DNA of 41,513 nt from Actinomycetes bacterium (GTDB lineage Bacteria > Actinomycetota > Acidimicrobiia > Acidimicrobiales > Ilumatobacteraceae), in contig JANYKS010000104.1 in NCBI GenBank assembly GCA_025358125.1, positions 1-41,513 of the forward strand. Reading direction: 5' to 3'. The notes below the pieces were generated by a model that worked only from the letters and a program-made list of their open reading frames with translations, searched no databases and was not told the DNA's origin. Each line of letters begins with the position of its first letter. Position 1 is the first letter of the stretch. The position numbers and the translations under genes are program-made. Positions 27,563 through 30,556 of this stretch are shown here, in pieces.

Positions 27563-28510
<948 letters not shown>

Positions 28511-28558: not shown

Positions 28559-29641
28559 TCAGAGCGTCGGCACGACGGCGTATGCCCCGCCGCCGCCAGC
28601 AGCGATCACATCGTCGAGCCAATTGCCGGCGTACACGTCGTTTGGACCCTGGATCAGGTCGTTCTCAGCGCCGGCCTGGGTGGTGACGAGCGTCCACGCC
28701 TGTCGTTTGTAGGTCCAGTTCTCCGGGAAAAGTTCGTGGGCCTGACGCCACCACGGCACCGCGGCGTCGTGACCGACGGTGTGCAGCAGGTGTTGACCGA
28801 TCTCGAAACATGCCGCGGCGCGGGCGTGGGCGTCAGGGCGAGGTTGGCTTCGCTCGACGACTTCTTGCGGACTCAGCGCGAACCGGCTCCGCGAACCGTT
28901 GTGGACCCAGTCGATGATCGCAGCGCGGTAGTCCTCGGCACAATCTGGGATCTTCTTCACTTCGCGCAATGCCTTGTCGAGCCGCTCCGGCAGGCCATCG
29001 GGGATGTCCATGTCACGGAGCGGACTGCGCTCGATCGTCGCCGCCTCTGCCGGGCGGACGATGTTGGCGTCTTCGTCGATCCAGATCGCCATCGGGATGT
29101 TGATGAAACCGAACAGCTCGCCCGTGACATGGCCCGTGTCGATCAGACTCGGATGGGTCGCAGCGGCCGCGTCTATCCAGGTAGAGGCATGGGCCGGGTT
29201 GACGTCGAGCGCAACGGTGACGACGGTGAGGCCGAGCGGTTCGAGTTCGATGTGGAGTGCCTGCCACCCGGGCAGACTCGTACGACAGCCTCAATAACTG
29301 GCCCAAGCCACGAGCAGCACCTTGCGACCGTGGAGCGTGCTGAGCCGGAACGGGTTGCCGTCGCGGGTGATCAGTTCGGGGTCGGCGGCGGCCGCGGTGC
29401 TGAGCGCACGACCGGTCGCGGTTGCCGGTCCGAGCGCCCACACGCCGTGCCCGGGGTCGTAGACGAGCGGCATGCCGAGTCGGCTCGCAATGACCTCGAT
29501 ATCGACCGAACCATCAGCGCGCAGTGAGCCGGGAGCTGGGACGCACACCTCACCACGGCACAGGCCCTGCGGCTTGGCGGCCCATCCGGTGCGATCGGCG
29601 ATGTCGTCGGGCTTGACGCTGCCGAGAGATTGGAGGATCAC
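28559..29641 (-). CDS. Predicted selenocysteine-containing redoxin (TGA at codon 117)
   Basis: A single frame from GTG 29641 to TGA 28559 (360 residues) contains one internal TGA at 29293-29291, codon 117. The sequence around it reads KVLLVAWASY-[TGA]-GCRTSLPGWQALH, the AhpC/TSA/TlpA-like redoxin active site with the TGA where a cysteine is expected, followed by Gly-Cys. The redoxin fold continues in the same frame after it (LGLTVVTVALDVNPA, FINIPMAIWIDEDANIV), with a helical C-terminal extension (about 260-360). A hairpin fitting the bacterial SECIS rules begins 11 bases after the TGA. Translated with selenocysteine it would be a U-X-C thiol/selenol oxidoreductase or peroxidase. Nine bases separate it from the SCO6745-family gene upstream. 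Alternatives are a sense-to-stop mutation (pseudogene) or sequencing error, but codons on both sides look fully constrained. The selenocysteine machinery is not in this window. Confidence 0.8.
29255..29293 (-). promoter_or_regulatory. Selenocysteine TGA codon and bacterial SECIS-like hairpin
   Basis: On the minus strand the TGA (29293-29291) is followed by an 11-base spacer. Then come GAGT and CTGCC pairing with GGCAG and ACTC (nine pairs, two bulged bases), closing the five-base loop CGGGT. The loop begins 21 bases after the TGA and has G at its second position. A distance of about 16-37 bases and an early G in a small loop are the accepted features for SelB recognition in bacteria. Confidence 0.75.
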
Positions 29642-29650
29642 GCCAACACC

Positions 29651-30556
29651 CTATGCGTCGCCGGTGGCCTGTTTGGCAAGATCGTGGGGACCGGAACGGA
29701 GATAGCCAAATCCTGCGCGCACGGCCGCGCCCCAGGGTTCGAGGATCTCGAACAGCTCGTGGATGTCGTCGCCGAGTGCGCCGATGGCCCCGGCCATCTG
29801 TGAATCGGTGACCGTCTCGATCAACTCGCGGGCCTCGCGCCCGGTGGCGGTCAAGGCGTCGGCGGTGATCAGGCCGCGTCCCTGCAAGCTCTCGGCGGCC
29901 GCGTCGAACTGATCGTTGGTCCAACCTCGGGTGCGGCTGTAGGAGCGCATCGGCACGCCCCAGTACAACTCGCTCAGCAGTCCGATCTGGGTCGCGTTCA
30001 GACCGGCCGAGATCCATGCGGCCGTGTGGCTGTCGCCGCGGTACTCGCGCAGCATGTCGCCCATCCTCCACATCTTCCCGATCGGCGTGTCCGGCAGCGA
30101 TTGCGAACCGAGCCCGGCGTACAATGGGCGACCTTCCGGGCGCAGCGGCTCGATCGCCCGGGTGAGGAGTTCGTTGACCCGGGCGATGCCCTCTGGTTCC
30201 TCGCCGAGGATGCGGACGAGCTGCGCGATCGCGCCGTCGTCGCGCGCCTGGCAGATGGTGGGGGCATCCGTGCGACTCCAGCCGATGGCAACGCACCGGA
30301 CGACGACCTCCGGGTTGAACACGCCGAATGCCGCCGCGACGACGCCGCCCGCCACCTGGCCCATGACGCTGCCCCGGCTCGTGAAGTACGCCGGACCGTC
30401 GGGCAGAGCGACGCCGCTCGCGTTCGCCGGGCTCGGATCGAAGCCGAGCGCGACGTAGTTGGCGTGGCATTCGGGGGCGAAGTACACCTGCCCGGCGAGG
30501 GGTTCGAGGACGGACCCGAGTTTGCGGGCACGTTCGGAGAGCGTCTCTGTGTCCAT
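29651..30556 (-). CDS. SCO6745-family protein (helix-turn-helix-like, function unknown)
   Basis: A 301-residue protein resembling the actinobacterial SCO6745/SalK family. Features seen: PLAGQVYFAPECHANYVALGF near the N-terminus, a Gly/Ala-rich middle (GSVMGQVAGGVVAAAFGVFNP), and a C-terminal MarR-like winged-helix part (LYWGVPMRSYSRTRGWTNDQFDAAAESLQGRGLI). No catalytic motif is evident. It is the first gene of a two-gene unit with the selenocysteine redoxin nine bases downstream, so the two may act in the same stress or redox response. Confidence 0.85.
   Translation of the reverse strand: MDTETLSERARKLGSVLEPLAGQVYFAPECHANYVALGFDPSPANASGVALPDGPAYFTSRGSVMGQVAGGVVAAAFGVFNPEVVVRCVAIGWSRTDAPTICQARDDGAIAQLVRILGEEPEGIARVNELLTRAIEPLRPEGRPLYAGLGSQSLPDTPIGKMWRMGDMLREYRGDSHTAAWISAGLNATQIGLLSELYWGVPMRSYSRTRGWTNDQFDAAAESLQGRGLITADALTATGREARELIETVTDSQMAGAIGALGDDIHELFEILEPWGAAVRAGFGYLRSGPHDLAKQATGDA

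Follow-up and report, generated by a model that had tools for sequence, protein, structure and literature searches.

The gene at 28559–29641 on the minus strand of the window (the whole 41,513-nucleotide stretch analysed) very probably encodes a genuine selenoprotein, a redoxin whose TGA at codon 117 is read as selenocysteine (Sec117, U). Four lines of evidence lead us to this assignment: Sec machinery in the genome, a homologue column holding Sec or Cys, an association with SelA, and a conserved hairpin behind the UGA. Computation thus supports selection of codon 117 as Sec. Taken together, the explanation that best fits the data is a genuine NF041054 selenoprotein, probably cytosolic, acting by the redox mechanism that we infer below, and we hold this combined reading with high confidence. 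The features discussed are as follows.

28559–29641 (−): selenoprotein gene, 360 residues, NF041054 WAxxUGC_long; GTG start at 29641, TGA stop at 28561–28559
29417–29641 (−): N-terminal module, residues 1–75 (profile search of the order sample)
29543–29560 (−): N-terminal CxxxxC, Cys28 and Cys33; invariant in 118/118 rows with a letter, 5 gaps
29042–29416 (−): ResA/TlpA-like redoxin domain, residues 76–200 (Pfam, Foldseek, sequence alignments to solved redoxins)
29291–29293 (−): in-frame TGA, codon 117, very probably read as selenocysteine; Sec/Cys column in the alignment
29285–29287 (−): Cys119, partner of Sec117 (U-G-C); C in 120/120 rows with a letter, 3 gaps
29259–29277 (−): SECIS-type hairpin, 7 bp, loop CGGGU (folding energy and conservation; 6 bp tested)
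28562–29041 (−): C-terminal, mostly helical region, residues 201–360 (predicted model)
29651–30556 (−): upstream SCO6745-family HTH protein (PF21863), 9 bases away, TAG stop
27563–28510 (−): downstream PAC2-family protein, kept beside the selenoprotein gene in close relatives

Translation of the frame from 29641 down to 28559 gives 361 codons, the last being the terminal TGA, with codon 117 (29293–29291, context WASY-U-GC) as the sole internal TGA. The first-pass annotation had described this 361-codon frame and its single internal TGA, together with the residues either side of the TGA (LLVAWASY before U, GCRTSLPGWQALH after), and its coordinates hold. It had given no strand; the coding strand is the minus strand, and the plus-strand reading of 28559–29641 is a different frame. 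Four close homologues (L026–L029) have ATG at the position of the GTG start.

Predicted fold and possible chemistry

We predicted the structure with AlphaFold2 from an alignment of 70 window and locus sequences (pLDDT 96.3, pTM 0.93). We left out of this alignment 17 named loci or pieces (duplicates, fragments and close copies), together with rows containing unknown residues; this gave 108 references, and 69 of the 100 listed were used alongside the window protein. The predicted model has a redoxin fold, the best solved matches in Foldseek being ResA- and DsbE-type proteins. Among the best 24 rows, 22 superimpose at 1.6–2.5 Å over 113–125 columns, the remaining two at around 9 Å over 146 columns. 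In sequence alignments to four solved redoxins, Sec117 and Cys119 fall on both cysteines of the CxxC, with a one-residue gap, in 4/4 cases among the alignments listed (10 matches).

Cys28 and Cys33 sit on neighbouring strands of the predicted model (26–29 and 32–34). The C-terminal region gives a weak match to a TPR-like repeat, no single stretch of which exceeds the threshold alone. Across 198 genomes of the order, a profile of the N-terminal module finds at least 106 matches (at most 31 candidates scored per genome), 104 of the 106 on contigs that the full-length model also matches, compared by contig. Of the remaining two, one lies at the end of a contig (G195) and the other in a broken copy (G017). 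Stand-alone use of the module was considered and rejected, there being no instance in the order sample beyond these two apparent family fragments. The broken copy (L158, contig 98 of G017) runs for about 40 N-terminal residues before passing into unrelated-looking sequence, and G017 also carries a full-length family member.

From the fold, the alignment of U117 and C119, and the invariant Cys pairs, we infer that Sec attacks, that Cys119 resolves and that the N-terminal pair may act as a relay. Sec117 would stand where a ResA/TlpA-type CxxC has its first Cys, with one residue fewer between the partners. Its selenolate would attack a disulfide or peroxide of the substrate, Cys119 would resolve the adduct to give a Se–S bond, and either the Cys28/Cys33 pair or a cellular thiol reductant would re-reduce that bond; the C-terminal helices may hold a partner protein. 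The likely role is that of a thiol-disulfide or peroxide reductase. Electron relay through Cys28 and Cys33 is possible, and is the least certain step of the mechanism. The fuller proposal, a self-contained selenium relay in which the family-only CxxxxC module reduces the U-x-C centre for turnover of cytosolic disulfides or peroxides, is one that we put forward tentatively and consider rather unlikely.

The same selenoprotein could instead be mainly a peroxidase of the Prx or GPx type, its N-terminal Cys pair being structural (a disulfide or metal site) and taking no part in a relay. Pfam AhpC-TSA and Redoxin both score over cut-off in the gene product, passages of surveys from 2008 and 2022 name UGC proteins Prx-like, and the placement of Cys28 and Cys33 on adjacent short strands would also suit a structural disulfide. 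Set against this, GSHPx falls below its cut-off, and the closest matches among both curated models and solved folds are the thiol-disulfide oxidoreductases ResA, TlpA and DsbE, although the curated ResA and TlpA models score far below their own cut-offs (35.2 bits versus 170 and 31.1 versus 230, respectively). We regard a mainly peroxidatic enzyme as a serious contender, albeit the less probable one.

Selenocysteine at codon 117

The source genome (118 contigs, 93.46% complete) is equipped for Sec insertion. SelA, SelB, SelD and tRNA-Sec, for which the first-pass annotation had proposed a search, are all present above cut-offs: a single tRNA-Sec (64.3 bits, anticodon tca), SelB (272 bits, cut-off 242) adjoining SelA (402 bits, cut-off 268) on one contig, and SelD (320 bits, cut-off 125). 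A further elongation-factor-like gene with an internal TGA (L010) was rejected, the counted TGA fitting, by eye, the gene's own stop; we take it to be a CysN-type gene. The source genome encodes two more family members, one on contig C107 and one on C29, and both have TGA at the motif. The C29 member belongs to a shorter branch and lies below the NF041054 cut-off (193 bits).

Homologues retain the TGA widely. Scanning named genomes yielded 17 loci, all from metagenome-assembled genomes (several of them labelled Acidimicrobiales, Acidimicrobiaceae or Ilumatobacteraceae); 15 cover the site and all 15 have TGA at the same codon. Across 198 genomes of the order, family matches at 1e-30 or better occur in 79 (41 above the family cut-off), with one TGA inside in 97 of 108 match rows and the TGA form in 69 genomes. 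In a sample drawn from the phylum, some of it from this order, 18/296 genomes have a match. One match in the phylum sample (G421 contig 1, 422945–423958) has both one TGA and one TAG inside.

The codon 117 column of 123 aligned rows comprises 110 U, 10 C, 1 Q and 2 gaps, counts that are not independent events, near-identical sequences (for example, L032–L036, L038 and L039) having been kept. The gaps are L041 and L081; L042 gave no match at the motif step. Set aside before alignment were the window, L082 and L083 (the same genes as L020, L022 and L021) and L066, which looks the same as L040. The Q row (L143) and one C row (L145) were rejected as true residues, both being misaligned second pieces of split genes. 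True Cys forms number nine (L072–L080); these belong to the shorter branch, all with CGC. The comparison of homologues at the TGA column, also suggested in the first-pass annotation, therefore finds exchange of Sec and Cys (110 U and nine true C of 123) and no other residue.

Presence of the TGA form tracks the machinery. SelA is found in 67 of the 69 order-sample genomes with a TGA form versus 50 of the remaining 129, and in two of the nine genomes with a Cys form only, the other seven being without SelA; the Fisher tests of these associations ignore kinship. G063 and G170, which have a TGA form but show no SelA, are 78% and 83% complete.

Downstream of the UGA, Sec genes share a 14-base spacer, then a six-pair stem closed by a five-base loop. 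Loop sequences over 110 Sec genes are CGGGT (49), CGTGT (30), AGGTT (19), GGTCT (11) and AGGCT (1). Of these 110 genes, 108 keep the inner five pairs (expected mean 44, maximum 61) and 104 keep all six (expected mean 38, maximum 56), where expectation derives from 1,000 synonymous-codon draws that follow the codon usage of the genes themselves, with a pooled weight added. Cys genes keep the inner five pairs in two of nine cases, close to the 1.7 expected. Paired changes are seen, with T-A for C-G at one pair (four genes) and C-G for G-C elsewhere (two genes).

Passages of PMC13188914 give rules for bSECIS elements: an upper stem of 4–16 bp, a loop of 3–9 nt with G within its first two positions, a distance of 16–37 nt from the UGA and an energy of at most −7.5 kcal/mol. 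The window hairpin lies within all of these, with 6–7 bp, a CGGGU loop 20 nt after the UGA, and energies of −7.6 kcal/mol in place and −11.5 kcal/mol alone. Across genes, 106 of 108 intact stems have an in-place energy of −7.5 kcal/mol or below, and G is found among the first two loop positions in all 108.

Folding energy of the whole stretch was rejected as a SECIS test. Over the 45 bases after the UGA, mean z-scores are −0.36 for 111 Sec genes and −0.79 for nine Cys genes, which does not separate the two; the positional stem test does. In the window, another pairing has lower energy within 43 bases from the UGA (z-score +0.80). Rfam at gathering level matched only a tRNA (tRNA-Met) in the window.

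Could the UGA be read without selenium, as ordinary Trp or Cys, under an altered genetic code or by leaky termination? Selection clearly favours translation through the TGA, which fits such a reading as well as ours. The selenoprotein gene itself terminates in TGA, though, non-TGA relatives have Cys and mostly reside in SelA-less genomes, and SelA, SelB, SelD and tRNA-Sec are all retained in the genome, leaving ordinary read-through very improbable. Least credible of all, to the point of being negligible, is a pseudogene created by nonsense mutation or assembly error in a Cys gene: one stop codon within the frame of one assembled contig would give the same picture, and a separate ATG at 29092 could open the downstream half as a 177-residue ORF, but the TGA recurs at this codon in all 15 named homologues that cover the site and in 110 of 123 aligned rows, 97 of 108 survey rows list one TGA inside, the Sec machinery is present, and sequencing error cannot explain a TGA found in 69/198 genomes with a conserved hairpin. 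Sec at codon 117 is the reading that we retain.

Genomic neighbourhood

The upstream HTH gene and the selenoprotein gene are likely to share a transcript. On the downstream side, the PAC2-family protein has a long Asp run shortly before its C-terminal tail. Comparison of 48 loci places PAC2 at 14 and HTH at six, all within the 17 named-genome loci, most of the other loci carrying short flanks. Neighbour clustering of 113 loci (73 are shorter than 3.2 kb, which keeps the flanks short; 11 close or duplicate loci were left out) returns PAC2 as the best shared neighbour, at eight loci.

PAC2 is also found near L074, a shorter-branch Cys form. NUDIX genes lie near six loci (L039, L041, L074, L075, L078 and L092), five of which also have a GlnD-like gene; NUDIX and GlnD-like genes are common to long-branch and short-branch loci. 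Given that NUDIX, GlnD-like and PAC2 neighbours occur with both, the two branches may share one ancestral neighbourhood.

Contig C107 carries, some 3 kb from its family member, a second TGA-containing gene (L083:9161–10216, plus strand; TGA at codon 239 in the context PV-U-PVC-H). It resembles the PrdB/GrdB selenoprotein B group, with PF07355 over cut-off and TIGR04483 below, and its start codon (ATG) shares sequence with the terminal TGA of a flavoprotein gene of MerA/lipoamide-dehydrogenase-like type (L083:7758–9161). This is probably a fourth selenoprotein of the source genome.

Relation to known families

Judged by profile match, the redoxin selenoprotein is a member of an already catalogued family, NF041054 (ResA-like WAxxUGC motif-containing protein), and is not new as a kind. 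It scores 492.6 bits against a curated cut-off of 300 (E 7.1e-148), the match spanning the TGA from residues 8–356 to profile positions 7–350 of 354, and the WAxxUGC motif is present with TGA at U (WASY-TGA-GC). We found no difference from NF041054 WAxxUGC_long, which shares the whole-length match, the WASYUGC motif and a Sec in the active site. The first-pass annotation had called the gene an unannotated selenoprotein. The second word stands; the first is weakened by the existence of a curated NCBIfam model for exactly this protein, and a pipeline using NF041054 should recognize the gene.

Earlier papers also point to a known kind. Passages of the Global Ocean Sampling survey describe a UGC-containing Prx-like selenoprotein with a pfam00578-type domain, commoner in nonmarine samples (PMC2398784); UGC-containing proteins are entered as Prx-like in the passages of PMC9312934 and as TlpA in those of PMC13188914. 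All three share with our protein the UGC motif and a pfam00578 or TlpA-type domain, and they likely represent the same family as NF041054. A literature search for 'WAxxUGC' found no paper in the collection searched, and 'NF041054' is absent from the main text of PMC13188914. The literature passages found describe no mechanism for the NF041054 family, and those on UGC-containing proteins give no description of the invariant CxxxxC module. What is added here beyond the family name is the ResA-like predicted fold, the U-x-C spacing, the invariant N-terminal CxxxxC and the presence of three members in this genome.

Codon 117 is a clear example of a stop codon that carries a second meaning; the actinobacterial order to which the source genome belongs has SelA in 117 of 198 sampled genomes. 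The CxxxxC, the U-x-C spacing and the natural Cys forms are direct handles on why selenium has been kept, and L072–L080 (CGC) are useful as selenium-free versions of the enzyme.

ResA, TlpA and DsbE are extracytoplasmic proteins, membrane-anchored or exported. By eye, our gene product has no signal peptide, membrane segment or hydrophobic N-terminal stretch. The two groups have a common redoxin fold, predicted here, in which Sec117 and Cys119 lie on the two catalytic cysteines of ResA, TlpA and DsbE. Those proteins use CxxC, whereas the selenoprotein has U-x-C, one residue shorter, and adds an N-terminal CxxxxC module and a C-terminal helical region.
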